Assembly (NCBI RefSeq): GCF_025352015.1
Contig: NZ_JANXUG010000114.1
Location: 1 to 34,795 of the forward strand
Origin: Flavobacterium sp.
GTDB lineage: Bacteria; Bacteroidota; Bacteroidia; Flavobacteriales; Flavobacteriaceae
DNA: 34,795 bases
Reading direction: 5' to 3'
Numbering within the stretch: position 1 is the stretch's first letter; the number at the start of each line of letters is the position of its first letter. Positions 1,743 to 18,596 of the stretch are shown here, piece after piece. Under the pieces are notes generated by a model. The model saw only the letters and a program-made list of their open reading frames with translations. It did not search any database and had not been told where the DNA came from. Made by a program: the position numbers and the translations under genes.

Positions 1743-1810
1743 TACAAAAGTATTATTTTGGCTGGTAAATGTGTTTATACAATTTGGCAAAATAATTATA
1801 TGATTCACAC
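1743..1810 (-). promoter_or_regulatory. Regulon promoter, site A (GTGTGAAT-23-box2-23-TTTTGTA)
   Basis: On the minus strand GTGTGAAT (1803..1810) is followed after exactly 23 bp by TATAAAC (1773..1779) and after another 23 bp by TTTTGTA (1743..1749). With the preceding bases the last element reads TACTTTTG, a full TAnnTTTG -7 match. The octamer begins right after the stop of the iron-permease-like gene. The same spacing recurs at four other promoters in the window. Confidence 0.75.
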
Positions 1811-2251
1811 TTAAGTAGCAGATTTGTTTTGAGTATCACTATCGTCTTCAGATAGAAGTATTTCCGATTCTTCTTCAATGAGAATTTCCTCTTGCATTTC
1901 GATATACTCTCTTGCCAGTTCTCTTATTTCATGTTCTGTTTTTTCGTTAGTATCCATCACAGCATTATTAGCTGTTTCATGCGATGATATTAATTCATTC
2001 ATTTTTAAATGAACCAAAGCAGAATAACGGTTAAATGATTTTTGGATAATAAACAAACTTAAAAAAGTGGTTCCAAAGATAAAATCACCAATATTCTGGT
2101 GTAAATTATTAGATATAAATAAACCTTTGGTCCACCAAAAAATCACTATACAAAATGCCAAAATAAAAGTTAGAGAATTGCCCAAAATTTTGGTTGCTGC
2201 TAACGTGAGTTTTTCGAAAGTACGTTCAATAACGATATAGGTTTTTTTCAT
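1811..2251 (-). CDS. Low-affinity iron permease family protein
   Basis: This is a 146-residue protein with two hydrophobic segments (about residues 22-45 and 55-75), separated by a short loop containing TKGLF and NIGDFIFGT. Next comes IQKSFNRYSALVHLKMNELI, the conserved core of the low-affinity iron permease family (PF04120). The C-terminal 50 residues are very acidic (EEILIEEESEILLSEDDSD). The family name comes from yeast Fet4; bacterial members are short and iron transport has not been shown for most, so the substrate is uncertain. No copy of the 68-bp architecture precedes it; its stop is adjacent to site A of the next unit. Confidence 0.75.
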   Translation of the reverse strand: MKKTYIVIERTFEKLTLAATKILGNSLTFILAFCIVIFWWTKGLFISNNLHQNIGDFIFGTTFLSLFIIQKSFNRYSALVHLKMNELISSHETANNAVMDTNEKTEHEIRELAREYIEMQEEILIEEESEILLSEDDSDTQNKSAT

Positions 2252-2281
2252 AATTTAAATAAATTGTTGGGGACAAAATTA

Positions 2282-2494
2282 TCATATTATTTGATGATTT
2301 GTAATATATTTTTTGAGCATTTCTTCCAGTGAGTTGTAATAATCTTGCAAAACTTTAATGTTTATTTCTGGATTGTTAACATCTGGAATGGTAACTGTCA
2401 TTTCATTCAAATACTTTAGCAATTCAGGATTATCATTGCTAATTTTGGTAGTAATTTTTAAGATTTTCTCGTTTAATGTTTGTTCTAAAAGCAT
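2282..2494 (-). CDS. Small protein of unknown function (70 aa)
   Basis: This is a soluble, charged 70-residue protein without signal peptide or membrane segment and without a domain I recognise. It reads as three helices, with a Pro/Asn-rich turn (TIPDVNNPEINI) in the middle. The ATG at 2494 lies just downstream of a minus-strand terminator, so it probably begins its own unit together with the iron-permease-like gene 30 bp further on. An overlapping plus-strand frame (2358..2552) is unlikely to be real because every flanking gene is on the minus strand. Confidence 0.6.
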   Translation of the reverse strand: MLLEQTLNEKILKITTKISNDNPELLKYLNEMTVTIPDVNNPEINIKVLQDYYNSLEEMLKKYITNHQII

Positions 2495-2510
2495 AATTTT
2501 TATAATTTTA

Positions 2511-2536
2511 AAAAAAGCACCTTATTGGGGTGCTTT
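2511..2536 (-). terminator. Rho-independent terminator ending the 9532-to-2561 operon
   Basis: On the minus strand an 8-bp stem (AAAGCACC with GGTGCTTT, loop 7 nt) is followed by continuous T residues. It lies 25 bp after the stop of the frameshifted small gene and just upstream of the 70-aa gene. It thus marks the probable end of the long operon that includes GH130, the GT fusion, dps and mlaEFD. Confidence 0.8.
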
Positions 2537-2560
2537 AATTAATAGCTATTGAGCGATTGA

Positions 2561-2921: not shown

Positions 2922-3647
2922 TTATTTCTTCTTTTCCGAACTCTTCTTATCAATCAATTCTTGTTTCTTTTTCTCGGCTTCTTTTTCTTTCTTTTTGAAA
3001 TAGCCGCGTAATAAAAAGTTATGTTTAGCAGCTTCCATATTTTCGTTTAAACCATTAGAAGCATTTTTAATATTTTTAAGTGTAGCATCAAGCGATTTTC
3101 CCATTTTGTCATCATTGACTAGTTTAGAAAGCATACTATTTTTATTATTCATTTTGGAGGTGAATTCCGCTAAATCAGCAGTTATGTATTGCGCATTGTC
3201 GACAATAACTTTGACACTTTTCATAATATCTTCCATTTCTACAGCTTTTGTTGATGCAATAAAAGCATTATTTTTCACAATAACTTTTGACGCAGTTCCG
3301 GGCGAAATAGTTAATACTTTGTCGCCCATCAATCCGTCAGAACCTATGCTAGCCATAGCATCTGTTTTGATGTATTTATGTACTTCTTCTTTAATAACTG
3401 CAAGCACAACCACGGATGTATCCGAGATAAATTCAATTGCTTGTACAGAGCCCACATTGATTCCAGAAAAGCGAACGTTGTTGCCTACTTTCAGTCCACT
3501 AACATTTTTAAATCTGGTGTTTAACATAAATGTTTCACCAAATAAATTTTTGTTACTACCAATTAAATAAATAGAAATCATAAAAAGTATCATGCCAATG
3601 ATGACAAACATTCCTAGCTTCCAGATATACGCTGATTTTTTTATCAT
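2922..3647 (-). CDS. mlaD: MlaD family (MCE domain) lipid-transport protein
   Basis: This 241-residue protein has one N-terminal transmembrane anchor (about residues 10-30) and then an MCE domain (about 37-115) with the typical GLKVGNNVRFSGINVGSV signature. A helical region and a Lys/Glu-rich tail follow. MCE proteins form periplasmic hexameric rings that pass phospholipids between membranes together with an MlaE permease and MlaF ATPase. Those two are encoded directly upstream in the order E, F, D with 16 bp before this ATG. No MlaB or MlaC homologue is visible in the window. The protein is longer than E. coli MlaD at the C-terminus. The neighbourhood with dps and glycan enzymes suggests envelope upkeep under stress. 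Confidence 0.85.
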   Translation of the reverse strand: MIKKSAYIWKLGMFVIIGMILFMISIYLIGSNKNLFGETFMLNTRFKNVSGLKVGNNVRFSGINVGSVQAIEFISDTSVVVLAVIKEEVHKYIKTDAMASIGSDGLMGDKVLTISPGTASKVIVKNNAFIASTKAVEMEDIMKSVKVIVDNAQYITADLAEFTSKMNNKNSMLSKLVNDDKMGKSLDATLKNIKNASNGLNENMEAAKHNFLLRGYFKKKEKEAEKKKQELIDKKSSEKKK

Positions 3648-3663
3648 AGCTGTTATTTTTAAA

Positions 3664-4401
3664 TTATATAAAAAAGGATTTTACCCAAGGATCTTCACTT
3701 TTTTCCAATTGAGTATAGGTGCCTTCGGCATTGATAATGCCATCTTTTAAAATCATAATTCTTTTGCCCGTTAATTTGGCGCAAGCCATATCGTGTGTGA
3801 TAATGAGCGATGTGGTTTTGTATTTTTTTTGAATAGAAACCATCAATTCACTTATTTCTCTTGCTGTTATGGTGTCTAAACCCGATGTAGGTTCGTCATA
3901 CAAGATAATTTCAGGTTTGATGATTAATGTTCGTGCCATCCCAATTCGTTTTCGCATTCCGCCCGAAAGTTCCGATGGCATTTTGTCAATTGCATCCAAC
4001 AAACCTACGTTATCAAGAGCTTCTGTTATTTCGGTTTCTATGGTTTGTTTGGAGCTGTTTTTATCGTGATGTTTTAGGGTAAAAGTAAGGTTTTGTCTTA
4101 TTGACATCGAATCGTATAAAGCTCCATTTTGAAACATAAATCCCATACGTGTTCTAATAGTATTGAGTTCATTGTTACTAAGTTTGGTGATGTCGGTTCC
4201 AAAAACTTTTATGATGCCTTGATCAGCCTTTTCCAGTCCAACCAAGCATTTTATAGTTACTGATTTTCCAGAACCTGAACGACCAAGTATTACCACATCT
4301 TCGCCTTTGTTTACTATGATATTCACGCCATTAAGAACTTCGTTCTCACCAAAGGTTTTATGTAAATTGGAAATTTCTATTACAGGTAAATTTTTTTCCA
4401 T
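3664..4401 (-). CDS. mlaF: MlaF-type ABC transporter ATP-binding protein
   Basis: This 245-residue ATPase has a complete nucleotide-binding domain: Walker A GRSGSGKS (residues 40-47), a Q-loop in FMFQNGALYDS, the variant signature LSGGMRKR, Walker B IILYDEPTSGLD and the H-loop in LIITHDM. The LSGGMRKR signature and the lack of a fused permease are typical of the MlaF/Mkl group, which powers MCE lipid transport. Its ATG overlaps the stop of mlaE by one base (TAATG), which indicates tight translational coupling. mlaD follows after 16 bp. Confidence 0.9.
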   Translation of the reverse strand: MEKNLPVIEISNLHKTFGENEVLNGVNIIVNKGEDVVILGRSGSGKSVTIKCLVGLEKADQGIIKVFGTDITKLSNNELNTIRTRMGFMFQNGALYDSMSIRQNLTFTLKHHDKNSSKQTIETEITEALDNVGLLDAIDKMPSELSGGMRKRIGMARTLIIKPEIILYDEPTSGLDTITAREISELMVSIQKKYKTTSLIITHDMACAKLTGKRIMILKDGIINAEGTYTQLEKSEDPWVKSFFI

Positions 4402-5159
4402 TAGAAAAATAAATCAGTTATTTGAACCGCAAGCATGTCTATGATGAATATAGAAAGTGATGCTGTCACTACAGCCGAATTGGCAGCGATACCAACACTT
4501 GCTGTTCCGTTTGAAGCATTGAATCCTTTATAACAACCAATTAGCCCAATAAAAAAACCAAAGAATAAAGTTTTAATCGTTGCAGGTATAACATCTAGGA
4601 ATTCAAGATGCTCAAAAACACCACCAAAGTAGCGATAGAAACTCATGCTGCCATGAACATTATAGCCAACATATCCGCCAAAAATCCCAACTAAATCGGC
4701 ATAAATCACCAAAATTGGAATCATTAATGTAGTAGCTAAAATGCGAGTTACCACAAGATATTTATAAGGATTGATTGCCGAAACTTCCATGGCATCAATT
4801 TGTTCGGTTACTTTCATCGAACCTAATTCGGCACCTATTCCGGAAGCAATTTTTCCTGCACAAATTAGCGCTGTAATAACAGGAGCAATTTCACGTATTA
4901 GTGAAAGCGAAACCATGCCAGGCAACCAAGATTCGGCACCAAACTTTGCCAATGTAGGACGTGATTGAATAGTAAGTACTAAACCCATAATAAAACCTGT
5001 AATGGTTACAAGGGGTAATGATTTATAACCTACAGCATAACTCTGCCTAAAGAATTCATTTATTTGAAATGGCGGTTTAAATAATTCTTTGAAAAACCTT
5101 GCGGTAAATAAAGAAATCGAACCCGTATCTATAAATATGTTTTTTAATCCTGGAATCAT
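4401..5159 (-). CDS. mlaE: MlaE family ABC transporter permease
   Basis: This 252-residue polytopic inner-membrane protein matches the MlaE/YrbE family throughout. Conserved stretches include GYKSLPLVTITGFIMGLVLT, SLIREIAPVITALICAGKIA, GAELGSMKVTEQIDAMEVSA and the C-terminal GCYKGFNASNGTASVG. It forms the membrane core of the MCE transporter with MlaF and MlaD. The start lies 13 bp downstream of dps, so the two are probably co-transcribed. Length is normal for the family and no key motif is missing. Confidence 0.9.
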   Translation of the reverse strand: MIPGLKNIFIDTGSISLFTARFFKELFKPPFQINEFFRQSYAVGYKSLPLVTITGFIMGLVLTIQSRPTLAKFGAESWLPGMVSLSLIREIAPVITALICAGKIASGIGAELGSMKVTEQIDAMEVSAINPYKYLVVTRILATTLMIPILVIYADLVGIFGGYVGYNVHGSMSFYRYFGGVFEHLEFLDVIPATIKTLFFGFFIGLIGCYKGFNASNGTASVGIAANSAVVTASLSIFIIDMLAVQITDLFF

Positions 5160-5172
5160 ATATATTTTTAGT

Positions 5173-5652
5173 CTAATTCAAATAGCGTCTTAAAATCCAA
5201 GCTATTGTTTCGTGTTGCTGTAATACTTTTGTTAATAAATCGGCTGTTCCAGCATCATGATTTTCATTGGAACATACATCAATATCTTTTCTAATTTCGG
5301 TAATCAGCGTTTCATTATCGTTTAAAAGCTCTGAAATCATCTCCTTTTGAATGGGATATTTGTTTTCGTTTTCTTCTAATCGTGACAAGTTAGCGAATTC
5401 TATCATAGTTCCAATAGTTTTGCTTCCTAAAGTGTTAATCCTTTCTGCAACTTCATCAATTATTTCTTCATATTGTTTGTATTGCATTTCAAACAATTTG
5501 TGTAATTCCATGAAACTGTTGCCCGTTATATTCCAGTGAAATTTTCTGGTTTTTACATACAATGTCATCTCATCAGACAATATAATTGACAAAAGTGAGG
5601 CGCTTTTCTTTAAGTTGATTTCTGTTATCCCTATTTTTGGCATAGCAATCAT
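5173..5652 (-). CDS. dps: Dps family DNA-binding ferritin-like protein
   Basis: This 159-residue protein is a Dps/ferritin-like four-helix bundle. The inter-subunit ferroxidase ligands are present with the same spacing as E. coli Dps: His39 (in KFHWNITG), His51 (in ELHKLF), Asp66 and Glu70 (in IIDEVAERI). It should oxidise and store iron using peroxide and protect DNA during starvation or oxidative stress. The N-terminus is short with a few basic residues, so direct DNA binding by an N-terminal tail is uncertain. A second Met at residue 4 is an alternative start. It sits between the 49-aa gene (23 bp upstream) and mlaE (13 bp downstream). Confidence 0.92.
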   Translation of the reverse strand: MIAMPKIGITEINLKKSASLLSIILSDEMTLYVKTRKFHWNITGNSFMELHKLFEMQYKQYEEIIDEVAERINTLGSKTIGTMIEFANLSRLEENENKYPIQKEMISELLNDNETLITEIRKDIDVCSNENHDAGTADLLTKVLQQHETIAWILRRYLN

Positions 5653-5836: not shown

Positions 5837-8161
5837 TTAAAGTGGAACATAATGTAAATTTTTATGTGTTTTCGGAACCCTTTGTAAAGCCAGTTTTGGA
5901 AATTTTGAAGTGTCTTTTTCCTGATACTTATCCATGGTTAATCTAGCCATTAGATAGCTAACAGTTGATTCGGCACCTTGGTTGAGATTGATATAATCTT
6001 CTTCTAAACCATCGTAACAGCCGCCTGTGCAAGGATTATATATAATTTGATTCAAATGATTCTTTCCTAAAAACCAATTAAATGCGATTTTCATTTTTTG
6101 CAAATAATCTTCATCACCAAAAGCATCATAAAACTTACTCAACGCCATGATTGTATAGGCTACATCAATTGGTTGCTCACCACCAATTTTTGGTTCATAA
6201 TTTTCCTCTCCATAGTGCAGCCATCCTTTATTTGAAATTACTTTGATGCTATCTTCTTTAAAAATTTTAGAAACTAAAAAATCAAAAGAGAGTATTGCGA
6301 TTTCTTTATAAATAGGTATATCTAATGTAATATATGCACATAACATTGCTTCAGATAAAATGCTATTACCGTATGTTAAGTAACTTTCAAACCATTGCCA
6401 GTTTTGATTAGCTTCATGTTTGTACATTTGGACTAATTTATCAGTCAAATGTTTCATGATAAGTAAATTGTCATTTGATGCGTTTTTTTTATTACTATAA
6501 TAAATGCCTTTAATGATGAAAGCCATTGCTCTTGGGGAATGAATTTTCAAAACATTTGACAACGATAGTTTCATAGTTATTTTTGCATCATCAATCAAAT
6601 CTTTTGGTAACAGATGACCGATAGAAATTAAATAACCTAACGCCCATATCGCTCTGCCGTTTGAATCAGAAAGATTTGTTTCGTTGTTTTGTTTGGTAAA
6701 TTTCTTGTTTTTATCTACATAATTCAAAAAATATCCATCCTCATGCAAACAGTGTTTAATAAAGTTGTAATAAAGTTGTATCAGAATCAAATCTGATTTA
6801 TTTTTTAATATTTCATAATGTTGACACAGTGCCACCAAAGCTCTCGCGTTATCATCTAAAGTGTACCCAGATTCGAGATTGGGTTGATTTATTATAGAAA
6901 ACTGAATCATTCCAAAATCAGTAGTCAGGTTTCTGATATGATTCAGATTGATTTTAGGTATTTTGTACTGTAATGCCAAAGATGTTTTAGAAATACTATC
7001 AAAAAGTAAAGAGTGCGCAATCGCCGAGTTTTCCCAAGCCGTAGGTGCTAATTTGTGTATTCCATTTGCAGAAATTAATGAACAGAATGCTTCGTCTTCT
7101 ATTAATTCAATGACTTTTCGGGCGAGTTGTTTTGGGTTTTCAAAATCGACAATAATACCGGTTTCGTTTTGCAACACTTCAACAGCATGAGGAATAGGCG
7201 TAGAGATTATAGGGCAACCACAACTTAAAGCATACGAAAAGGTTCCGCTTACGGCCTGATTTCGGTCTTTGGAAGTAAATAAATAAATGTCTGTAAGTTG
7301 TAAATATTTAAGTAAATCTGCCAATGGAACATATTGATTTATGAATTTGACATTGTTTTGCAGGTTCATTTTTTTTATTGTTGCTTCAAGTGTATCACGA
7401 TACCTTTCACCTTCTTCTTTTACGACAGTAGGATGTGTTTTTCCTATAACTAAAAAAAGTACGTTTGGATGTCTTTTGACAATAATTCGCAACGCATTAA
7501 TCGTAGTTTCGATACCTTTTCCTGAACTTAATAAGCCAAAAGTTGCTAATACTATTCGTCCTGATAAATTATACGTTTCCTTTAAAATTGCTTTGTCCAA
7601 ATGCTCTACTAAATGCGTTCCGTGTGGAATAATAGTAATTTTTGCTGAATTGATGCCATAATCGTTTGTCAGTATTTTAGCAGACGAATTAGTCATTACA
7701 ATAATACTTTGAACCAAAGAATCGATATTTTTGATTAACTTTTTCAATAACACTTTAGGCTGTGGTAAAACAGTATGAAAAGCAATTATAATAGGTTTCT
7801 TAAGCTCTTGTAAAAAACTAATAAAATCGTCTTCATTGTTTTTGAATAAGCCAAATTCGTGCTCAATGAGTATTAGTTGAATGGCTATGTTTTCATTGAT
7901 ACTTGCAGCAGTATTTTTATATGATTTCTTATTATCTGTTTCTAAAATATATTTGACTTCTTTTGGGTATAAATGTTTGTAATTCTGTTGTTCTAAAGCA
8001 CAAATATTAATTTTAAAAGATTTTTCAAATTTATTTTTTAAAGCTCCAATTAAATCTTGAGAATAATTAGCAATACCGCATTCACGTGATGGATAGGAGG
8101 TAACAAATACTAGTTCTGGCATATTTTCAGTAGAAGCAGTGTGAAGGTTTTTATTTTTCAT
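5837..8161 (-). CDS. GT4 glycosyltransferase fused to a C-terminal (alpha/alpha)-barrel domain
   Basis: This is a 774-residue cytosolic protein in two parts. Residues about 15-375 are a GT-B fold family-4 glycosyltransferase. Visible motifs are the N-terminal SYPSRECGIANYSQDL, the sugar-nucleotide domain start VLATFGLLSSGKGIETTINA, and the donor-binding loop SGTFSYALSCGCPIISTPIP. Residues about 400-760 are helical, with repeated Asp/Asn/Gly-rich motifs (LDDNARALVALCQ, SDSNGRAIWALGYL, GGEQPIDVAYTIMAL) resembling an (alpha/alpha)6 glycosidase-type or epimerase-type toroid. The two-domain form is a recognised arrangement in Bacteroidota and is often beside GH130, whose gene overlaps this one by 11 bp. 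The pair probably builds and trims a mannose-containing glycan; acceptor and product are unknown. Confidence 0.8.
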   Translation of the reverse strand: MKNKNLHTASTENMPELVFVTSYPSRECGIANYSQDLIGALKNKFEKSFKINICALEQQNYKHLYPKEVKYILETDNKKSYKNTAASINENIAIQLILIEHEFGLFKNNEDDFISFLQELKKPIIIAFHTVLPQPKVLLKKLIKNIDSLVQSIIVMTNSSAKILTNDYGINSAKITIIPHGTHLVEHLDKAILKETYNLSGRIVLATFGLLSSGKGIETTINALRIIVKRHPNVLFLVIGKTHPTVVKEEGERYRDTLEATIKKMNLQNNVKFINQYVPLADLLKYLQLTDIYLFTSKDRNQAVSGTFSYALSCGCPIISTPIPHAVEVLQNETGIIVDFENPKQLARKVIELIEDEAFCSLISANGIHKLAPTAWENSAIAHSLLFDSISKTSLALQYKIPKINLNHIRNLTTDFGMIQFSIINQPNLESGYTLDDNARALVALCQHYEILKNKSDLILIQLYYNFIKHCLHEDGYFLNYVDKNKKFTKQNNETNLSDSNGRAIWALGYLISIGHLLPKDLIDDAKITMKLSLSNVLKIHSPRAMAFIIKGIYYSNKKNASNDNLLIMKHLTDKLVQMYKHEANQNWQWFESYLTYGNSILSEAMLCAYITLDIPIYKEIAILSFDFLVSKIFKEDSIKVISNKGWLHYGEENYEPKIGGEQPIDVAYTIMALSKFYDAFGDEDYLQKMKIAFNWFLGKNHLNQIIYNPCTGGCYDGLEEDYINLNQGAESTVSYLMARLTMDKYQEKDTSKFPKLALQRVPKTHKNLHYVPL

Positions 8162-9197
8162 TGGAAATAGTATTAAGCATTATTTCTTGTAACAATTCGG
8201 ATAAATTCATAGATGCACAAGCAATTCTTTCATCGGCAGCGCCATAATAAATGTATAAGGTTTCATCAAAAACAACCGCTCCAGTAGGGAAACAAACGTT
8301 GTTTACTTCACCTTTTACTTCCCAATGAAACTCGGGCACAAATAGCGGATAGGGTAGTCTGGCTATTTCTTTTTGTGGATTATTTATATCTAACAATGCA
8401 GCGCAAGCAGAATAAACATAGCCTTTTAACGAATCGTGAACACCATGATAAATTAGTAACCAGCCATATTCTGTTTCTATAGGAGGACAACCACCGCCAA
8501 TATAACTCACTTCATGCGCGTATTTGGGTTTTAAAACGACATAATCGTTAAAATGTGTAAAGTAATTTTTCCAAAATTCTGGGGTTAATTCTTCAACTGT
8601 GTCGAACGAAGTTACAATCTGGATTTCAGGACGAATTCGATGAAGAAAACATAGTTTACCTCCAATTTTTCGTGGAAAAAAGATAACATTTTTATCCCAA
8701 ATCAGCATTGGAGTTCCTTCTTTTTCAATAATATGATCGTGTTGGTTGTAACGGTAATATTTTTCGTTGCTAATTCCTTTTGCGCCAATTAATGCATTGA
8801 AATCCTGGTAAGTTATTTGCGGAACAATTATACCTTTTTTTTGAAAATGAATTAAATCTTTTGAAGTGGCCAAACAACCCAAGGCATTTACACCATCGTA
8901 AGCTGTAAAAGTCAAATAATATATATCTTCAATTTTTACAATTCTTGGATCTTCAATTCCATGACATTCATAATCAAATTCGGGAGATAGCAACGGTTTA
9001 ACATCTCTTTTTTCAATAAATAAAGGACCTTTAAGTTTACAGTAACCAACGCTTGAATAATTTCCTTTACGAACCGCTCTGTAAAGAAGGTGCACAAACT
9101 CGCCATCTCTTATGACAGCTGGATTTAAGACGCCTTGATTTTCAAAATCGAGTTCCGTTTTTTGCAGTAATATGCCTTCTTTTATGATATTTATCAT
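8151..9197 (-). CDS. Glycoside hydrolase family 130 protein (mannoside phosphorylase/mannosidase type)
   Basis: This 348-residue five-bladed beta-propeller enzyme has the GH130 signature stretches: VLNPAVIRDGEFVHLLYRAV near the N-terminus, GIEDPRIVKIEDIYYLTFTA, SYIGGGCPPIETEYGWLLIY and YHGV, and FPTGAVVFDETLYIYYGAAD. GH130 enzymes act on beta-mannosides, either by phosphorolysis or hydrolysis; which applies here cannot be told by eye. Automated annotation sometimes labels this family a pesticidal Cry7Aa protein, which is not supported. There is no signal peptide, so it should act in the cytoplasm. It overlaps the GT fusion gene and follows the small exported protein by 17 bp. Confidence 0.85.
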   Translation of the reverse strand: MINIIKEGILLQKTELDFENQGVLNPAVIRDGEFVHLLYRAVRKGNYSSVGYCKLKGPLFIEKRDVKPLLSPEFDYECHGIEDPRIVKIEDIYYLTFTAYDGVNALGCLATSKDLIHFQKKGIIVPQITYQDFNALIGAKGISNEKYYRYNQHDHIIEKEGTPMLIWDKNVIFFPRKIGGKLCFLHRIRPEIQIVTSFDTVEELTPEFWKNYFTHFNDYVVLKPKYAHEVSYIGGGCPPIETEYGWLLIYHGVHDSLKGYVYSACAALLDINNPQKEIARLPYPLFVPEFHWEVKGEVNNVCFPTGAVVFDETLYIYYGAADERIACASMNLSELLQEIMLNTISNEK

Positions 9198-9762: not shown

Positions 9763-11217
9763 CTAGTAAGCCGTTCTTAATTCTACTCGTCTGTTTTTGG
9801 CACGACCTAATGAGGTTTTGTTATCAGCAATTGGTTTGCTTTCTCCGAAACCTGTCGCACTTAAACGAGAAGCAGCAATACCTTTTGTTACCAAATAAGC
9901 TTTTACAGATTCAGTACGTTTTTGCGAAAGCGTCAAGTTTGAAGCATCAGAACCATTGCTGTCTGTATGACCATCTATGAATAGATTAGCACCTTCATAT
10001 TTGTTAAGAATTTTTGTAAGTTCATCTAATGATGTCAACGAAGCTACTCTTAATTTATCACTATTATTTTCAAAGAAAAGTTTACTTCCTAAATAAGTTA
10101 TTCTCACAATATCTTGCTTGGCTATTTCTGGACAACCTTTATTTTCTATTGTTCCTTTTGCATTTGGACAACGGTCGTCTATATCAGCTACACCATCTCC
10201 ATCAGAATCTGGACAACCTTTTAAACTAGCAATACCAAAGGTATCTGGGCAACGGTCATCATCGTTCAATACACCATCTTTGTCATTGTCTAACGGACAA
10301 CCAGTTTCATCTACTTTGGTGCCTGGTTTTGTGTTTGGACATTTGTCATCTAAATCGGCAACTCCATCACCATCACTATCGGGACAACCTTTTAAAGCAA
10401 TTGTTCCTTTAGTATCTGGGCATCGATCTTCTGAATCCATCACACCATCATTATCTTTATCCGGGCAACCGTTCATTAATGCATTTCCTGCCACATCTGG
10501 ACATTTGTCTAAATAATCGGCAACGCCATCATTATCTCTATCAAGCGGACATCCATTTTTGTCAACTGCAACACCAGCTGGAGTGTCTGGGCATTTATCT
10601 CTACTATCACTAATACCATCATTATCGGCATCTTTTTTGCTTCCAAAATTGAAAGTCAATCCGACCATGTGCATCAAATAATCATCATTTTTACCAGCAA
10701 TAATGCCATCTCTGCTGTCATTATTAGTAAACATGAATGTTTCCTGAAGATTTAAAGACATCACTGGGCTTAACCTGATGTTTATACCTCCACCGGCTGT
10801 TGGCAATGCAGAATCGATTTTTTCTTTATGAAAATTAAGTTGTCTGTCAAATAGTATTAAACCAACTCCCCCAAATACATAAGGTCTAATCACGTAATCT
10901 GACGTTACAAAGTTCCATCTTAAATTGATTGTTGCCGCGCTAAAATCACTCTTATATCCAGTAACACCGCTATTATATCCCAAGGTTCCTCTGGTATAAA
11001 CTCCGTTCAAATCGATGTATTTCCATAAATATCTAGAAACACTAATACCAGCAAAACCATACATAGTTTTATCAGTTTTGTACCAGTCCCTGCCCAAATC
11101 GCCATGATACTGAATGATTCCGCCATGAAGTCCGACGTTCCATTTCATGTCCTCGGTTTGAGCTTTTGTGGTAAATGTTGCCGCTAGGCAAATACATAAT
11201 AGTAGTAATTTTTTCAT
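9763..11217 (-). CDS. OmpA family outer-membrane protein with thrombospondin type 3 repeats
   Basis: This 484-residue protein has a signal peptide (1-19, ending TKAQ) and an N-terminal outer-membrane beta-barrel (about 20-192). Six calcium-binding TSP3 repeats follow (196-363, motifs such as DNDGVADYLDKCPD, with paired Cys). The C-terminal OmpA peptidoglycan-binding domain (about 385-484) contains FIDGHTDSNGSDASNLTLSQ, with the Asp and Arg residues that hold diaminopimelate. It should tie the outer membrane to the cell wall. The gene is monocistronic: terminator below, regulon promoter site C above, with a 22-bp leader. OmpA/TSP3 proteins are among the most abundant outer-membrane proteins of Flavobacterium; regulation by a stress promoter suggests this is a conditional paralogue. 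Confidence 0.92.
   Translation of the reverse strand: MKKLLLLCICLAATFTTKAQTEDMKWNVGLHGGIIQYHGDLGRDWYKTDKTMYGFAGISVSRYLWKYIDLNGVYTRGTLGYNSGVTGYKSDFSAATINLRWNFVTSDYVIRPYVFGGVGLILFDRQLNFHKEKIDSALPTAGGGINIRLSPVMSLNLQETFMFTNNDSRDGIIAGKNDDYLMHMVGLTFNFGSKKDADNDGISDSRDKCPDTPAGVAVDKNGCPLDRDNDGVADYLDKCPDVAGNALMNGCPDKDNDGVMDSEDRCPDTKGTIALKGCPDSDGDGVADLDDKCPNTKPGTKVDETGCPLDNDKDGVLNDDDRCPDTFGIASLKGCPDSDGDGVADIDDRCPNAKGTIENKGCPEIAKQDIVRITYLGSKLFFENNSDKLRVASLTSLDELTKILNKYEGANLFIDGHTDSNGSDASNLTLSQKRTESVKAYLVTKGIAASRLSATGFGESKPIADNKTSLGRAKNRRVELRTAY
10129..10632 (-). repeat. Tandem TSP3 coding repeats
   Basis: The DNA encodes six Asp/Asn-rich calcium-binding repeats of about 23-36 residues, each with a DxDxDG core (DADNDG, DRDNDG, DKDNDG, DSDGDG, DNDKDG, DSDGDG) followed by CPD or CPN. 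The fourth and sixth units are the most alike, which suggests internal duplication. Confidence 0.85.
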
Positions 11218-11239: not shown

Positions 11240-11307
11240 TACAAAGGTTGGTAGGATTGATCACTGGTATGTTATATAACTATAATTTTTAGTTGCGTTA
11301 TTCACAC
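11240..11307 (-). promoter_or_regulatory. Regulon promoter, site C (GTGTGAAT-23-TATAACA-23-CTTTGTA)
   Basis: On the minus strand GTGTGAAT (11300..11307), TATAACA (11270..11276) and CTTTGTA (11240..11246), all matching the consensus, with both spacers 23 bp. The leader to the OmpA-family ATG is 22 bp. Confidence 0.8.
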
Positions 11308-12140: not shown

Positions 12141-12208
12141 TACAAAGGTGGCAGGAAATACGAATAAATCTGTTATATGATTAGCGTGTTAGTTTCTATA
12201 ATTCACAC
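12141..12208 (-). promoter_or_regulatory. Regulon promoter, site D (GTGTGAAT-23-TATAACA-23-CTTTGTA)
   Basis: On the minus strand GTGTGAAT (12201..12208), TATAACA (12171..12177) and CTTTGTA (12141..12147) all match the consensus with both spacers 23 bp. The leader is 34 bp. It lies in the gap downstream of the response-regulator gene. Confidence 0.8.
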
Positions 12209-12236: not shown

Positions 12237-12671
12237 TTACATTCTTTCCATGTACCAATTGAGTTCATTTTCCATTTTTTGATATTTAAAAAAAGTGGAA
12301 ATTACTTTTTGTAACCTTACAAAAGAGGTTTCACTTTTTACCACATAATCAAAAGCTTTGTGGTGTATACAACTCACTGCAACTTCAATTTTATCTTGGC
12401 TGGAAAGCATTATTACAGGTATACCGGCATTAAATTCTTTTATTTTATCTAACGTTTGCATACCGTTGATAGCATTTTTAACAATACCGTCAAGATGATA
12501 ATCTAAAATAATAATATCAGGTTTTTTTGTCAAATTTTTAATGCAAAGTTCTCCAGTAGGAAAGGTTTCTATCTCAAAGTCTGCATGTTCCATAAATTGT
12601 ATTTCCATTGCTTTCAAGAAAACTGCATCATCATCTACAAGGAAGAGTTTAATTTTAGTATCAGTTTTCAT
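12237..12671 (-). CDS. Receiver-only response regulator
   Basis: This 144-residue protein is a single CheY-like receiver domain. It has the acidic pocket Asp13-Asp14 (LVDDDAVFL), phospho-acceptor Asp57 (IIILDYHLD), the Ser of IMLSSQ and the conserved Lys of DYVVKS. About 20 helical residues follow, and no DNA-binding or enzymatic output domain is present. It probably works as a phosphate sink or protein-interaction switch. The start is 2 bp from the stop of the hybrid kinase gene, so the two are co-expressed and the kinase's HPt domain is the likely phosphodonor. Confidence 0.88.
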   Translation of the reverse strand: MKTDTKIKLFLVDDDAVFLKAMEIQFMEHADFEIETFPTGELCIKNLTKKPDIIILDYHLDGIVKNAINGMQTLDKIKEFNAGIPVIMLSSQDKIEVAVSCIHHKAFDYVVKSETSFVRLQKVISTFFKYQKMENELNWYMERM

Positions 12672-12673: not shown

Positions 12674-15649
12674 TTATTTTTTTAAATTTATTAATTCATT
12701 TTTTAATTCTATAAACGATTGTAGACATACTTCTTCTAATTCTGTCACCATATCATTTAATTCTACAGCTAGGTCTAGTTTTTCAGCATATTCTTGAATT
12801 TTTTTTGCAAGTTCTTCATATTGAGGATTGATGCCCATGATGGCAAAAGAAGGGATAATTTTATGAGCGGTTGCTTTTAATAATTTCCAGTCTTTATCTT
12901 TAAAACTTTGTTTCATTGAGGTTAGTAATGGCGGTGTTTGTTTTAAATACACCTCTATCATTTCTGTCATTAATTTGGCATTGGCTTTGGTAAGTTGAGA
13001 CAAATAGCTCAAGTCGACATACTTTACAGTTGGTATTTCTTTGTTTTCGTTTATTTGATTATCGGTGATTGAGTTTGGTTTTTTAATGAAGCTCAATAAT
13101 TTGCTGTAAAGCAATCGTTCGTCAACAGGTTTAGAGATGTAATCATTCATCCCGACGGATTTACATTTGGCTACATCAACTGTGGTTACATCGGCTGTAA
13201 GGGCTAAAATTGGCAGGGTTAACTTCATCTTTTGTCTGATGTATTCCGTTGCTTCAAACCCATTCATTTCAGGCATCTGTAAGTCCATTAAGATTATATC
13301 ATAGGAATTTTTTACTAATTTTTCTATTGCAATTTTACCGTTGGCTGCAATTTCGCATTCGAAACCAAAGTCATCCAACAATGTTTTCATTAACAGTTGG
13401 TTGAGTTCCATGTCTTCAACAACTAATATTTTGGTATTTTTAATTTCGGTATCAATTTCCAAAATTTCGGGTTCTAAAACTTCCTCAACTTGTGTTTTAT
13501 CAAAATAAATAACAAAGCTAAAAATAGAGCCTTTACCAATGGTGCTTTCTACTTCAATAGTGCCATTTTGTGCTTCAACCAATTGTTTAACGATTGCTAA
13601 TCCCAAACCCGTTCCACCAAATATTCGAGAAGTGCCACTAGTAGCTTGTTGAAAGTTTTCAAATATTTTTTCGATTTTATCATCGGTTACGCCAATGCCT
13701 GTGTCGGTCACAGAGAATTTTATTGCCACATTCTCATCGGTTTCAGAAATTAATTGTACACTTACAGTAATTTTTCCTGCGTTTGTAAACTTGACAGCAT
13801 TGCTTACCAAATTTAGAATTATTTGATGCAAACGCACTGGATCGCCCACCAAAACGTCAGGAATAGCAGTATCATAATGAGTCACTAATTTTAAATTTTT
13901 CTCCTGAATTTTAGTTTCAAAAAGATGTAACATTGCTTTGATCGACATTTTTAGTTTGAAGGGTGTTTTTTCAAAAGTCATCTTTCCGGCATCTACTTTT
14001 GCTAAATCAAGTATGTCATTTATAAGTACAATTAAGGCATCACCACTCATTTTGATGGCTGTTAAATATTCTTTTTGTTTGGCAGTTAATTCGGTTTTGA
14101 GTACCACTTTGGTGAACCCTATAATGGCATTCATTGGTGTCCGAATTTCGTGACTCATATTAGATAAAAATTGTTGTTTTGATTTTACGGCTTCATTAGC
14201 TTTAGTCGTTGCAGCTTCTGCAATAATTTTTGCTTCATCGGCAAGTGATGATGCGAGTTCTGCGAAAGTCTTGGATTCAATTAATTCTTTTTCAGATTTT
14301 TTTTGTTCGGTTATATCTCTGGCTACTACAACGGCACCAATAATATTACCTTTTTCATCTTTGTAAACTGCGCCGTTAAACAATACATCTGTTAGTTTTC
14401 CGTCTTTTAAAACCAATGGATAATCCACCACAAAACCTTTGGAGAAAACTTCTTCATATCCTTTTTTAGCTTTTTCGGGCTCGGTAAAATAGTTGGTAAA
14501 ATCAGTGTTCAACAAATTCTCTTTTGAAACCTCTGTTACTCTCACAGAGGCTTGATTGGTATCGGTGATTTTGCCTTGTGGACTGATGGTAAACAAAGGG
14601 TCTCGACTAGCTTCGATAAGACTTAAAGAATATTGTGACGCTAATTTTAGTGAGTAATTATAGGCTTCCAACTCTTTGTTTTCAAATACTCTTTTTTCTT
14701 TTTCTTCATTTTGAAAATTAAGTTCTTTGTCTGCAATAACTAGTTCGTTGGCTCGATTTTGTTTTTCATCTTTTTGAAATACCAATTCTTTATTGGCAAT
14801 GATTAATTCATCAGCTCTTTTTTGTTTTTCGAGGGTTTGAAATTTAAGTTCAATGTTGGCAATCAGCAATTCGTCGGCACGATTTTGTTTTTCACCAGTT
14901 TGAAATAATAATTCTTTGTTAGCAATAATTAATTCAACGGCTCGTTTCTCTTTTTCTTTGTTTTGAAAAGCCAATTCTTTATTGGCGATGATTAACTCGG
15001 CAGCACGTTTTTCTTTTACTTTGTATTGGTATTCTAATTCTTTATTGGCTACCTGTAATTCTTCAGCACGCTTTCCTTTTTCGGTGTTTAGATGTTCTAG
15101 TTCTATATTGACGATATTTAATTCGTCTGAACGTTTTTCTTTTTCATCGTTTTGATAGGCAAGTTCCTTATAGGCAATAACGAGTTCGGCGGCGCGTTTT
15201 TCTTTTTCTTCATTTTGAAAAGCCAAGGCTTTGTTTGCCAATACCAACTCTGCAGTAGATTTCTTTTGATTTGTAATATCTATATATGAACTGTGATTGT
15301 ATTCATTACCTTCGGAATTAATGACTTGAATGGATACAAGAAACCAAATAGAATCTCCTTTTTTATTTTTAAGTTCTATTTCGAAATTGTTCAATCCTTC
15401 TTGTTTTTTTAATTTCAAAAGGATTTGGTTTCTAATTTGGGGTGTTATAATCCCTAATTCTATAGATGTTTTTCCTATGATTTCTTCTCTGGTATAGCCA
15501 AAAAATTGTAAAAATGACTTATTTGCGTATTGAAATTTTGAACTTTTTACATCAGTAAAAGCCATTCCAATGGTGCTATTTTCAAAAATATCAAAGAATA
15601 GATTGCTAAATATGTTCTTATGTTTTTCTGATATATTAGGTAAAATCAT
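12674..15649 (-). CDS. Hybrid sensor histidine kinase (PAS - 21-aa repeats - PAS - HisKA - HATPase - REC - HPt)
   Basis: This 991-residue cytosolic kinase has no transmembrane segment. Domains in order: PAS (about 20-130); nine 21-residue coiled-coil repeats (131-320); a second PAS (about 335-450); a helical linker; HisKA with His500 in SHEIRTP; HATPase with N-box Asn617, DTGIG (649-653) and GGTGLGLAI; receiver with phospho-acceptor Asp789 (ILMDLQMPEMNG); and HPt with His929 (TAHKIIPSFAIMG). All phosphorelay residues are present. It resembles tripartite BarA/ArcB-type kinases. The AraC-type regulator is 16 bp upstream and the receiver-only protein 2 bp downstream, giving a compact signalling operon. 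The signal is unknown; soluble PAS domains suggest an intracellular cue. Confidence 0.92.
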   Translation of the reverse strand: MILPNISEKHKNIFSNLFFDIFENSTIGMAFTDVKSSKFQYANKSFLQFFGYTREEIIGKTSIELGIITPQIRNQILLKLKKQEGLNNFEIELKNKKGDSIWFLVSIQVINSEGNEYNHSSYIDITNQKKSTAELVLANKALAFQNEEKEKRAAELVIAYKELAYQNDEKEKRSDELNIVNIELEHLNTEKGKRAEELQVANKELEYQYKVKEKRAAELIIANKELAFQNKEKEKRAVELIIANKELLFQTGEKQNRADELLIANIELKFQTLEKQKRADELIIANKELVFQKDEKQNRANELVIADKELNFQNEEKEKRVFENKELEAYNYSLKLASQYSLSLIEASRDPLFTISPQGKITDTNQASVRVTEVSKENLLNTDFTNYFTEPEKAKKGYEEVFSKGFVVDYPLVLKDGKLTDVLFNGAVYKDEKGNIIGAVVVARDITEQKKSEKELIESKTFAELASSLADEAKIIAEAATTKANEAVKSKQQFLSNMSHEIRTPMNAIIGFTKVVLKTELTAKQKEYLTAIKMSGDALIVLINDILDLAKVDAGKMTFEKTPFKLKMSIKAMLHLFETKIQEKNLKLVTHYDTAIPDVLVGDPVRLHQIILNLVSNAVKFTNAGKITVSVQLISETDENVAIKFSVTDTGIGVTDDKIEKIFENFQQATSGTSRIFGGTGLGLAIVKQLVEAQNGTIEVESTIGKGSIFSFVIYFDKTQVEEVLEPEILEIDTEIKNTKILVVEDMELNQLLMKTLLDDFGFECEIAANGKIAIEKLVKNSYDIILMDLQMPEMNGFEATEYIRQKMKLTLPILALTADVTTVDVAKCKSVGMNDYISKPVDERLLYSKLLSFIKKPNSITDNQINENKEIPTVKYVDLSYLSQLTKANAKLMTEMIEVYLKQTPPLLTSMKQSFKDKDWKLLKATAHKIIPSFAIMGINPQYEELAKKIQEYAEKLDLAVELNDMVTELEEVCLQSFIELKNELINLKK
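14690..15259 (-). repeat. Nine 63-bp coding repeats (21-residue coiled-coil units) in the kinase
   Basis: The translated units follow the pattern AAELxIANKELAFQNEEKEKR; most keep AxEL, (I/V)ANKEL, FQ and EKxxR. Each is 21 residues, that is three heptads, so the repeats can extend one continuous coiled coil between the two PAS domains without changing register. Units differ by many substitutions, so the array is not freshly expanded. Confidence 0.9.
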
Positions 15650-15665: not shown

Positions 15666-16232
15666 TTAATTGCCTAGTTCCTCTATTGGGCTTCTTTTTT
15701 TATCTTTTAGTAATTTAAAATGTGATGGCGTTAAACCGGTTACTTTTTTAAATTGGGTGGACAAATGCGCCACACTGCTGTAATTCATTTTCCAAGCTAT
15801 TTCTGTAATATTCAACTCGTCATAAATGATGAGTTCTTTAATGCGTTCTATTTTATGCAAAATCAAAAATTGTTCAATAGTGGTGCCTTGTACTTCCGAA
15901 AATAAGTTGGCGAGGTACGTATAATTTTGATTCAATTTTTCACTTAAATATTCTGAAAAAGTCACTTTAATAGGCTCGTCTAAATGATGAACCATTTCTA
16001 TGATTACATTTTTTATTTTTTCAATCATTATGGCTCTTTTATCATCCATAAGTTCCAAACCTGTTTCTAATAAACCTGCTTTGAGTAAAGCTCTTTTTTC
16101 ATCAGAAATGTTTTCCATAATGTCAACTACACCCAAATCAACAATGATAAAATGCAAGCCTAATTTCTTGAGTTCTTCTTTAACTATTATTTTGCAACGA
16201 TTGCTGACCATGTATTTTATATAAAGTTTCAA
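15666..16232 (-). CDS. Short AraC-type helix-turn-helix transcriptional regulator
   Basis: This 188-residue protein has an N-terminal 85 residues without recognisable sensor domain. An AraC-type double HTH follows (about 88-172: YLSEKLNQNYTYLANLFSEV, ITEIAWKMNYSSVAHLSTQF, KKVTGLTPSHFK). The start is TTG at 16232; the disrupted paralogue nearby has ATG at the matching position and the leader AAACAAACTAT is shared, which supports this start over Met8. It is the first gene of the operon with the hybrid kinase (16 bp gap) and the receiver-only protein. It is the only intact DNA-binding regulator encoded in the stress island, hence the natural candidate to act at the shared promoters, although that is not shown by the sequence. 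Confidence 0.85.
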   Translation of the reverse strand: MKLYIKYMVSNRCKIIVKEELKKLGLHFIIVDLGVVDIMENISDEKRALLKAGLLETGLELMDDKRAIMIEKIKNVIIEMVHHLDEPIKVTFSEYLSEKLNQNYTYLANLFSEVQGTTIEQFLILHKIERIKELIIYDELNITEIAWKMNYSSVAHLSTQFKKVTGLTPSHFKLLKDKKRSPIEELGN

Positions 16233-16650
16233 GATAGTTTGTTTAAAAAGATTTTATTAATGGTTTTGTTTTTAATTAAGATAATTCTATTAAAATTTTA
16301 AAATTTACTGTTTTAAGTCAAACTTCATCAAGCGTGTTTCTTTTCTTAGCTTTAAGATTTTTAAATAAAGTAGTTGTTAAACCAGTTACTTTTTTAAATT
16401 GAGTCGATAAATGCGAAACGCTTCTATAGTTCATTTTATATGATATTTCTGTAAGGTTAAGTTCATCATAGAGTAATAATTTTTTTACCTTTTCAATTTT
16501 GTGGGCAATAATATAATGTTCAATAGTAATTCCTTTAATTTCCGAAAATATATTGGCAAGGTAATTGTTATAAAACCCATTATTTTACTAATATATTCAG
16601 AATAGTTTACTTTGGGTAGTTCATCGTTGTAATGAATCATTTCGATTTTT

Positions 16651-17629
16651 GATTGTCTGTTTTTACTCATAACCCTGTAATGCCAGCAATTACTAGCCTA
16701 TCGAATAGTTTTTCTTCAAAATATCTTCTATTTAACTTGTAAACAAACTCATTTAGGTATAATTGAAGGTGTTTTCCTTTTATTTTATGGTAATTACCTA
16801 GGAAATTTCGCTTTGCATTACTTATTGCAATATGAACCCATTTTAAAGTTTCTGTTGTTGTTTCTTTATTAGACTTTTCTGTTATGTGTATTTCTACAAA
16901 ATCTGCAATGTCAATATAGGATGTGCTTTTGTCTGTAAAAAGAATACTTTTCTCTGAAATTGATTCTTTTATAGTTTCATTTATCTGTTCAGCGGTATGA
17001 TCTGTCAAAACTTTTGCTTTAAAATACCTGCATTGATTTGATTTCTTTCCTGTTTCAATATCTTCTAAAACTGTTGACTCTGCCATAATTGCGGTATTCA
17101 TTTTTCCTACCGCACCTCGACCACGAATTCCTTTGTCTTGTTCTATTTCTGATGATGCAACAGTAAAATAACCTTCGTCAAATTCTATCATTCCTTCCAA
17201 AGTATAACGAGCATCTCTATTGCCCATTGCTTTTCGCAGCTTATGAACCATCGCCCAAACTGGTTCGTATCGTTTTAATCCAAGCTGTTTTTGAATTTCT
17301 TTACTCGAAAAACCTTTCTTGGTTGCAGTCATTAAAAACATCGTTTTATACCAAATCAAGAAAGATAAATTGGAACTTTGCATTATGGTGCCACTTCGTA
17401 AAGAAGTTCTACTTCTACATTTTTTACATTCATAACTCCAGACACTTTTTATCCAAAAATGCTCTTTGCTTCCGCATTTACATTCAACTCCTATTTTATC
17501 TCTTTCTTCTTTAAAATGAAGTCTACATGATTCTTCGCTCCCGAAATTTGCTGTAAAACTGAATAAATTCATTGCTTTTTATTTCAAATATAATACTTTT
17601 TTATTAATTATGAATAATTACGGACAATC
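16651..17629 (-). mobile_element. IS1595-family insertion sequence, complete (979 bp)
   Basis: The imperfect terminal inverted repeats are 22 bp with 18 matches (GATTGTCTGTTTTTACTCATAA at the left, read on the plus strand; GATTGTCCGTAATTATTC... at the right, read on the minus strand). They enclose one intact transposase gene whose stop codon lies within the left repeat. The flanking octamers (CGATTTTT and AATTCTTC) do not match, so no target duplication remains. That fits the deletion seen in the interrupted gene. Confidence 0.85.
16667..17572 (-). CDS. IS1595 family transposase (ISXO2-like)
   Basis: This 301-residue transposase has an N-terminal zinc ribbon (Cys pairs in VECKCGS and YECKKCRSRTS, about residues 30-55). 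A helical segment (MTATKKGFSSKEIQKQLGL) and an ISXO2-like catalytic domain follow, with IEFDEGYF, LFTDKSTSY and the conserved C-terminal WVHIAISNAKRNFLG and YLNEFVYKLNRR. Length and layout are normal and no frameshift is seen, so the element may still be active. The ATG lies 57 bp inside the right inverted repeat. Confidence 0.92.
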   Translation of the reverse strand: MNLFSFTANFGSEESCRLHFKEERDKIGVECKCGSKEHFWIKSVWSYECKKCRSRTSLRSGTIMQSSNLSFLIWYKTMFLMTATKKGFSSKEIQKQLGLKRYEPVWAMVHKLRKAMGNRDARYTLEGMIEFDEGYFTVASSEIEQDKGIRGRGAVGKMNTAIMAESTVLEDIETGKKSNQCRYFKAKVLTDHTAEQINETIKESISEKSILFTDKSTSYIDIADFVEIHITEKSNKETTTETLKWVHIAISNAKRNFLGNYHKIKGKHLQLYLNEFVYKLNRRYFEEKLFDRLVIAGITGL

Positions 17630-17691
17630 AATTCTTCTTTGACTAACATTTTACAACGCAGGCTGACCATATATTTAGTGTATAGTTTCAT

Positions 17692-18290
17692 TATTAATAG
17701 TTTGTTTGATAGGTACTGATTTGTATTGATTATTTTAAATTAAAATTTTATTTTTATTTCGAATATGCCGTAATTTATTTGTGTGTTAAAAGTTAAAGCA
17801 AAATTATTATTTAATAATTTTTAATTCATTTTTAATTCATTTTTAAAATTGTGGACATCATTTTAAATTCTTTATTAACAGAAAAAATTTATATAATATG
17901 AAAAAGAATAAAAAATTATTTCACGTATTACTAATTTTAATTTATGGGTTTTAATAGTTATTTTGACTGAATAGTCAATAATTTACATGGAATAATTGCC
18001 AAAAAAATGCTATTGTCATGAAAGTTAGGAATAATAAAAGAGAAATCAGGAATGTTATCTTTTATTTTTTTAATATTAATTTGAATTACCACAACATTTA
18101 TTATATAATGCAATATCTAAACTGTAATGTCAAATTTAGATTTTTCAAATTCAAATGTATCCATGCTCTTATTTTGAAAACGAATATCAAGTCACAATAA
18201 AAGATTGTTAAGTCAAAAAATTAAATATTTTTAAAGATAAACTTAAGTAAGCGGCTAATATTTGACAATCGTGCAAATAATATTTAAAGC
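17692..18290. other. AT-rich intergenic region, about 600 bp, no firm gene
   Basis: This contains the presumed leader and promoter of the disrupted AraC paralogue (a TAATTTTG -7-like element on the minus strand at 17799..17806). It also holds short direct repeats of TTTTAATTCATT (about 17818..17846), a perfect 6-bp inverted repeat TTGACT-GAAT-AGTCAA at 17963..17978, and an 18-codon plus-strand frame (17898..17954, MKKNKKLFHVLLILIYGF). A 60-codon plus-strand frame at 18018 has low-complexity composition and no homology I recognise. I see nothing here that I would call a gene. Confidence 0.6.
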
Positions 18291-18485
18291 CTAGGACTCA
18301 TCTTTTGTGGTACGTACTAAACTAATGCCCGACGCAAAGAAAAGTACTCCCAATACTCCATATATAATGAGTGTTTTAATATCTCTTGTACTATTTGTTG
18401 CAGAAAGAAATACTTGTGCTGCATAAATAAGGCTTCCTATACCTAAAACAGTTAATATAGCTCCAAAAATTCTTTTTAAGTTCAT
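18291..18485 (-). CDS. Two-TM small membrane protein (64 aa)
   Basis: This 64-residue protein has two transmembrane helices (about residues 5-25 and 38-57) joined by a polar loop (SATNSTRDIKT) and a charged tail (RTTKDES). An in-frame upstream ATG at 18533 is rejected because it overlaps the -7-like element of promoter site E; the ATG at 18485 gives a 43-bp leader like those of the other regulon genes. I recognise no family with confidence. Shared regulation with the lmo0937-type and YtxH cluster suggests a similar envelope-stress role. Confidence 0.7.
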   Translation of the reverse strand: MNLKRIFGAILTVLGIGSLIYAAQVFLSATNSTRDIKTLIIYGVLGVLFFASGISLVRTTKDES

Positions 18486-18528
18486 GATTTTGAGTTTAGA
18501 GTTGTCAATTAATTTTAAACAATGTAGC

Positions 18529-18596
18529 CACAAAGATTAATTTTTGCACTCTATTTACATTTGCATAATAATTTTATTAAATTATATAATTCACAT
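18529..18596 (-). promoter_or_regulatory. Regulon promoter, site E (ATGTGAAT-23-box2-23-CTTTGTG)
   Basis: On the minus strand ATGTGAAT (18589..18596) and CTTTGTG (18529..18535) each differ from consensus by one base, and the distance of 53 bp is the same as at the other four sites. The middle box (TGCAAAT, 18559..18565) is poor. This is the most diverged of the five. Confidence 0.6.

Follow-up and report, generated by a model that had tools for sequence, protein, structure and literature searches.

Six predicted promoter blocks on the minus strand of a 34,795-nucleotide stretch of Flavobacterium DNA, here called the window, probably bind the AraC-family protein encoded at 15666..16232, which, judging from the sequence, would activate predicted stress-protection genes. 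A broader reading, offered tentatively, makes this arrangement the equivalent, in Bacteroidia, of a general stress regulon, in which a copper-sensor-like AraC protein that has lost its metal ligand and come under a kinase–receiver relay might drive widespread envelope and cell-protection genes via a fixed 21-bp direct-repeat promoter code. Bacteroidia abound in soil, water and guts, and with the code tied to one regulator gene, regulon members would be predictable in any genome. We know of no described master regulator of CsbD/YtxH/OmpA/Dps-type genes in Bacteroidia.

Predicted promoter blocks in the window

The original prediction had described five 68-bp blocks, each with an octamer, a middle box TATAACA, not exact at every site, and a CTTTGTA-like last box at fixed distances. 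A check of the sequence located all five on the minus strand, at 1743..1810 (site 1), 9604..9671 (site 2), 11240..11307 (site 3), 12141..12208 (site 4) and 18529..18596 (site 5), with the octamer GTGTGAAT at four and ATGTGAAT at one; a single promoter architecture with fixed spacing is common to the sites, and the spacers are unrelated. As claimed, three sites have the exact middle box; it reads TATAAAC (two mismatches) at site 1 and TGCAAAT (four mismatches) at site 5. CTTTGTA itself forms the last box of two of the five sites, the others having TTTTGTA, TTTTATA and CTTTGTG. A scoring matrix built from 93 sites of relatives, none from the window, gives 47.8, 45.2, 39.0, 31.6 and 23.6 for sites 3, 2, 4, 1 and 5, respectively, and 24.4 for a sixth site at 345..278. 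These six outrank all other positions of the window, of which the next best scores −1.5; among 100 dinucleotide shuffles the highest score was 17.7. Site 6 (278..345, minus strand) is new with respect to the original prediction. By itself, the octamer shows no enrichment in the window (27 one-mismatch matches, with 34 expected); enrichment is seen for the fixed-gap combination of boxes. No RNA element came up when the window was scanned against Rfam at gathering thresholds.

The genes behind the sites are, by family, of the stress type originally proposed, a claim borne out by gene family and not by expression. Site 1 precedes the minus-strand genes of an lmo0937-family (DUF5670) membrane protein of 50 residues (1563..1715) and a YtxH-like protein (1298..1543). 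Behind site 2 follow, on the same strand, a gene for a 105-residue protein and those for a GH130 phosphorylase (8151..9197), a glycosyltransferase (Glycos_transf_1; 5837..8161), a Dps/ferritin-like protein (5173..5652), and MlaD, a Mla-type ABC ATPase and MlaE (2922..5159). Site 3 precedes an OmpA-family outer membrane protein (9763..11217, minus strand), and site 4 a 127-residue DUF1904-like and then a 101-residue DUF892-like protein, both labels resting on Pfam matches below the cut-off. Site 5, with a weak right half, precedes a two-TM protein (18291..18485, minus strand; 64 residues from its ATG), whose gene also comes first after a site in 12 of the fetched relatives. Site 6 precedes a DUF4382-like lipoprotein, which starts at 239 and is cut by the contig end; it was likened by eye to a relative's target, G029_31590, which matches DUF4382.

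Architecture of the motif

The motif is a pair of AraC-style direct half-sites with a spacing of 21 bp, AAT-n-ATRYAAC on the left and ART-T-n-TRTAAC on the right; the downstream one lies on the −33 region and is followed, at an almost constant distance, by a σA-like −7 element. The gap between the halves is at consensus in 137 pairs, one shorter in 3, with 4 strays elsewhere; from the right half to the −7 element it is at consensus in 91 cases, one shorter in 9, with 1 stray. The original prediction had taken the boxes for a 30–31 bp repeat; they are the edges of the two half-sites, and the longer repeat was dropped for the 21-bp direct repeat on the strength of a symmetry test, in which the latter was the best internal symmetry of 97 sites (4.13, against a maximum of 2.80 in 200 column permutations). 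Inverted symmetry ranks second (3.06), likewise above the column permutations. At site 1 the left half-site covers about 1806..1790, the right one about 1785..1769 and the −7 element 1752..1745 (minus strand); +1 is predicted at 1740, from the placement of TAnnTTTG at −12..−5 in a start-site map of F. psychrophilum (PMC9723704).

The AraC-family protein

The presence of the regulator gene within the same island as the sites, like the class-wide distribution treated below, was absent from the original prediction. The protein (15666..16232, minus strand; 188 residues, TTG start as listed) combines a predicted HMA-like N-terminal domain, a linker helix and a C-terminal AraC double HTH; HTH_18 matches with 59.3 bits (Pfam cut-off 33.6), and seven helices are predicted between residues 91 and 175. 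No receiver domain was seen in the protein, and the 22 NCBIfam equivalog models that matched it all fell far below cut-off. On the same strand lie the genes of a hybrid histidine kinase (12674..15649; PAS, HisKA, HATPase, REC and a weak Hpt) and of a single-domain response regulator, receiver only (12237..12671); for each of the two, 20 of the 21 islands fetched have a match. Two relatives, G189 and G148, have the two-TM gene, then a tandem AraC copy, the AraC gene, kinase and receiver, all on one strand.

The N-terminal domain has the predicted order β-α-β-β-α, with a two-residue strand at 59–60. Pfam HMA does not match the window protein and matches a paralogue below cut-off (E 0.0049); 9 of 11 PDB matches, all weak (E 0.033–0.45), are metal chaperones or copper ATPases. 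The metal-ligand CxxC is absent from the window protein, which has SNRC instead, and MVSxRC stands in 62 of 63 motif occurrences at the 58 loci of the window-type search. The domain may descend from an HMA domain that bound metal, with serine now in place of the first ligand cysteine.

Linkage of the sites to the regulator gene

That the AraC protein is the binder has to be weighed against another reading, which we consider unlikely: a DNA-binding protein encoded elsewhere may occupy the sites, the AraC gene being merely a member of the regulon. Against it, the frequency of sites climbs with AraC similarity, from 9 of the 144 class genomes in which AraC has no match at 1e-25 to 15 of the 16 with one at E ≤ 1e-85 (the window's genome among them); the bins between, in falling order of similarity, give 9/11, 13/21, 10/32, 5/29 and 9/42. 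The nine genomes with sites but no such match are what another binder would explain; no full-length AraC copy turned up in any of them in a profile search at 1e-10, and they include G415 (16 sites) and G468 (11 sites). A kinase relative in G415 is located some 1 kb short of a contig end, so that the assembly may lack the regulator. G468 carries some sites with a TAATTTTG-like end.

A site often stands upstream of the AraC gene itself (12 of 21 genus islands, 12 of 29 class-level loci), as it would for a mere target, and the same counts suggest positive autoregulation; directly upstream of the AraC gene of the window there is none. Flanks of up to 1.5 kb around the 29 best class-level AraC loci hold a same-strand site in 21 cases and an opposite one in 3, with none in shuffled sequence. 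Further evidence speaks against an outside binder: the AraC gene encodes the sole DNA-binding regulator domain among 22 island ORFs scanned (598–18533), the other DNA-acting ORF being a transposase, and the 21-bp direct repeat is the classic geometry of AraC half-sites.

A paralogous AraC branch points in the same direction, with related sites of its own beside it. It has retained an intact CxxC and adjoins metal-transport genes; at 20 such loci, counted without shuffle comparison, a same-strand site was found in 10 and an opposite one in 2. The best symmetry of 12 sites of this branch is direct with 21 bp, and the target proteins examined (5 of 12) are all metal P-type ATPases or HMA-domain proteins. 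Domain order, site architecture and the position of sites beside the regulator are alike in both types, whereas the metal branch differs from the window type (MVSxRC) in these targets and in its N-terminus, which is MVCxRC in 15 of 18 proteins read; the other three have MVSLRC, at loci without a site. If true, the relationship would mean that one regulator family moved from metal sensing to stress control.

Core promoter elements

The −7 box reads [G/C]A-YC-TTTG, with the first T of TAnnTTTG mostly replaced: among 97 sites, A is kept in 98% and TTTG in 84–99%, the first T in only 16%, with G or C in its place in 73%. An activator-dependent promoter with a degenerate −7 element, one of two options in the original prediction, is supported by the sequence. 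The other, an alternative sigma factor that reads the block as an extended promoter, is very improbable. The nearly fixed spacing down to −7 and the degenerate −33/−7 elements would suit it, but the −7 box retains the A..TTTG of σA, sequence is conserved as far as some 70 bp ahead of the predicted start, well past a two-element promoter, and none of the 22 ORFs scanned in the window's island (598–18533) has a sigma-factor domain; the motifs SM4–SM6 of F. psychrophilum, as given in PMC9723704, differ as well. As the main reading it was rejected for the retained core and the lack of a linked sigma gene among these ORFs.

Occurrence in the genome, the genus and the class

In a scan of the own genome (2.6 Mb, 116 contigs), as called for in the original prediction, the three-box pattern with up to three mismatches gave five hits, four of them in the window, and a refined pattern eight, five in the window, with none in either reversed control. 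Outside the window, C7:73902 bears a good site, with a score of 38, and C57 a weaker one, with a score of 20. Because most pattern hits fall in the window, the set in this genome is mainly one local island.

A leave-one-genome-out scan of 21 related islands returned 152 sites on the AraC strand, none on the opposite strand and none in a single pass of shuffles; the islands were selected because they hold the AraC gene, and linkage among these related genomes is not independent evidence. The proposed comparison with coding sequence did not refute the pattern: only 4 of the 152 sites in these islands lie mainly inside a CDS, where a rough ORF mask would lead one to expect about 123. At 151 of the 152 sites, TTTG is followed by the first ATG of an ORF of at least 45 residues at a distance of no more than 400 nt (median 40 nt), and the first genes behind these 151 fall into 31 BLAST clusters.

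Across the genus, a pattern hit at two mismatches was present in only 30 of the 43 genomes whose AraC match reaches E ≤ 1e-80 and in 20 of the 98 whose AraC matches are all weaker, counts that include variant ATGGAAATTCTATAAC sites (G013, G051, G195, G025, G011, G181), maybe those of another regulator, and a few chance-looking hits (e.g. G120, G155, G193). Some hits lie on contigs other than that of the AraC gene. The class scan found sites in 70 of 295 genomes and 41 of 155 genera, with none in the reversed control and with other neighbours where examined. Shared ancestry of the island genes' upstream regions, with no binding site involved, would fit the clustering of many genus sites in one co-oriented island, but is the least credible reading in view of the unrelated spacers with fixed gaps, the many gene clusters and the recurrence in other genera.

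Proposed mechanism and comparison with known systems

On the preferred reading, an AraC dimer on the two half-sites would offset the weak −33 and −7 elements and recruit σA RNA polymerase. More tentatively, the conserved hybrid kinase and lone receiver might pass a stress signal to the AraC protein. The claim that no regulator with this signature has been described agrees with the literature searched, subscription papers and preprints lying outside it; no Bacteroidota paper was among the matches listed for the octamer, and AraC does not occur in the main text of PMC9723704.

With the AraC/XylS activators (AraC, RhaS, MarA/SoxS) the system shares the C-terminal double HTH and direct half-sites, the downstream one at −33. 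In araI1/I2 two helical turns separate the direct half-sites, and the downstream half-site occupies the −35 region. In contrast to these activators, the N-terminus here is predicted to be HMA-like, not sugar-binding, and the targets are of the stress type. CsbD-like proteins and YtxH belong to the SigB regulon of Firmicutes, and such gene products overlap with those found here. Both terms, CsbD and YtxH, occur in a SigB paper (PMC7824861). Unlike in that regulon, no sigma factor was found in the island ORFs scanned, an activator acting over σA-like promoters is proposed, and the phylum is a different one. The HTCS of Bacteroidota, finally, consist of a hybrid kinase plus an AraC-type HTH. Both are likewise present in one locus here, but a separate gene encodes each of kinase, receiver and AraC protein, and no receiver domain is seen in the latter.

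Sites in the window and in its own genome

Five copies of the three-box promoter block had originally been predicted on the minus strand between 1743 and 18596, and a check of the sequence found all five as described. A sixth site, absent from that prediction, lies at 345..278 on the minus strand, upstream of the gene for a DUF4382-like lipoprotein, which starts at 239 and is open at the contig end. Scored with a matrix trained on relatives' sites alone, the six sites outscore every other position of the window (47.8 to 23.6 vs. −1.5 for the next); the top score in 100 shuffles of the window was 17.7. In the 2.6 Mb of the own genome, strict patterns fall mostly on the window contig (3/3, 4/5, and 5/8 at three pattern settings). 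A good off-island site (G000:C7:73902, score 38) is located upstream of the gene for a 585-aa lipoprotein, whose N-terminal start resembles, by eye, the relatives' 563-aa Big_5/ice-binding-like protein. Another off-island site, G000:C57:11545, precedes the gene for a 148-aa protein that is rich in methionine and lysine and has a signal-like start.

Distribution and predicted target genes

Of 199 genomes of the genus Flavobacterium, 58 contain the three-box pattern at up to two mismatches and 3 the reversed control. A refined pattern, run on 295 genomes of the class Bacteroidia (GTDB; 155 genera), matched in 70 of them from 41 genera, with no match for the control; at this setting 225 genomes were without a match, and a single genome, G297, carried 30. 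Islands, taken as the regions around the AraC orthologue, came from 21 genomes of the genus selected by AraC match and contig size; the genus pattern matched in 18 of these genomes and not in G166, G017, and G142. At up to four mismatches it gave 93 sites in the islands, all on the AraC strand, and one match in three passes over shuffled islands. A leave-one-genome-out matrix scan found 152 sites on the AraC strand vs. none on the opposite strand and none in one pass over shuffled islands; the three pattern-negative genomes contributed to the 152. Since the training sites came from the pattern of the original prediction, the scan would overlook sites with a markedly different layout. A mainly coding location was seen for 4 of the 152 sites vs. 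≈ 123 expected (rough ORF mask, 81% coverage). We conclude that the promoter code is real and present across many genera of the class. A variant class, ATGGAAATTCTATAAC...TATAACA...CTTTGTA with unchanged spacing, was noticed in G051, G195, G025, G011, G181, and G013 (C2:22372 and 22486), the latter with two copies close together.

The first genes behind the 152 island sites form 31 clusters, headed by CsbD-like (32 bits, under Pfam's 40) and Big_5/ice-binding-like proteins (15 genomes each). OmpA, a two-TM protein, and the AraC gene itself follow with 12 genomes each, a DUF2383 protein and Dps with 9, and a DUF1904-like protein and an outer-membrane barrel with 7; the remaining clusters are smaller than that of the barrel. 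These gene families may point to a stress regulon.

The AraC gene as candidate regulator

The AraC gene (15666-16232, minus strand), assigned to its family by domain, encodes the sole DNA-binding regulator domain among the 22 island ORFs scanned (598-18533), which include a transposase. The hybrid kinase (HK, 12674-15649) and the single-domain receiver (REC, 12237-12671) were each found in 20 of the 21 islands, AraC in all by construction; the island of G076, selected for an AraC paralogue, lacks both. In bins of falling AraC similarity, sites occur in 15/16 (counting the window's own genome), 9/11, 13/21, 10/32, 5/29, and 9/42 genomes of the class, and in 9/144 without an AraC match; the Fisher p of 5e-14 at E ≤ 1e-75 is overstated because the genomes are related. 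The corresponding numbers in the genus are 30/43, 5/16, and 20/98, with 3/42 for genomes without a match. Within flanks of up to 1.5 kb, the best 29 class-level AraC loci have a same-strand site in 21 cases and an opposite-strand site in 3, compared to 0/29 in shuffled sequence. Twelve sites begin 86–120 bp upstream of the AraC coding start, and at six further loci (L154, L155, L160, L161, L165, L166) the site begins at +552, where the AraC coding sequence ends. The promoter code is likely read by the AraC protein, a putative HMA-like activator.

The +552 start recurs in the paralogue loci L189, L194, L198, and L205; it is seen in several families and in both branches. In the HK, as in L180, PAS domains are separated by a run of near-identical coiled-coil repeats; the number of repeats may vary, as suggested by numerous overlapping matches in G297.

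Nine class genomes have sites yet no AraC match, the serious cases being G415 (16 sites) and G468 (11). The G415 assembly has a kinase relative (50% identical over 569 aa) roughly 1 kb from a contig end, so that the AraC gene is possibly hidden by an assembly gap. The eleven sites of G468 (C24, C46, C129) share a TAATTTTG-like −7 end, and two of them occupy the identical position (244) on separate contigs, which suggests that they belong to a repeated element.

In the window, the matrix scan detected no site directly upstream of the AraC gene. In G189 and G148, one strand carries, in this order, the two-TM gene, a tandem AraC copy, the AraC gene, HK, and REC, an arrangement in which the site upstream of the first of these genes would drive the regulator. 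In the window, the two-TM gene and the AraC gene are now separated by an IS1595-type transposase gene (16667-17572). Abutting the transposase gene are the broken remains of a second AraC copy in tandem (16321-16670; 65% to residues 104-185), and stop-free tandem copies are found in the relatives G189, G148, G166, and G197.

Paralogue branch and N-terminal domain

Twenty paralogue loci (51–59% identical) were picked from a longer match list; a same-strand site was found in 10/20 and an opposite-strand site in 2/20, counts taken without a shuffled control. Behind 12 same-strand sites of this branch, the five first proteins examined comprise two metal P-type ATPases, two small HMA proteins, and one HMA-MauE protein. 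We infer that this metal branch senses metal. Its regulators carry MVCxRC in 15 of 18 read among the 20 loci and MVSLRC in three (L192, L195, L199), where no site reached the threshold; at window-type loci, 62 of 63 motif occurrences are MVSxRC. The predicted structure of the AraC protein (pLDDT 82, pTM 0.71) places an HMA-like order at residues 2-60, followed by a linker helix and the AraC domain, with weak matches for the HMA kinship of the N-terminus.

Promoter architecture

The consensus of 97 sites (93 from relatives, 4 from the window) reads AAT GTGTGAAT n AT RY AAC TTTT in the left half and, after about 5 bp, AAA RTT n TRTAACAC TTTT in the right half, followed by [GC]A YC TTTG TA. The best internal symmetry of this matrix is a direct repeat of exactly 21 bp (4.13; maximum of 2.80 in 200 column permutations), ahead of an inverted arrangement (3.06); a 21-bp direct repeat was again best for the 12 paralogue-branch sites (score 1.0, without permutation background). 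Both gaps are near-constant, between the halves (137 at the consensus, 3 one shorter, 4 strays) and from the right half to the −7 element (91 at the consensus, 9 one shorter, 1 stray). In this element, read as TAnnTTTG, the first T is retained in 16% of the 97 sites and replaced by G or C in 73%. For F. psychrophilum, published work (PMC9723704) places the −7 element at −12 to −5; positioned likewise, the predicted start would fall on matrix column 70, with A or G in 77%, and the downstream half-site would span about −45 to −29. Such an architecture would be expected of an activator-dependent sigma-A promoter.
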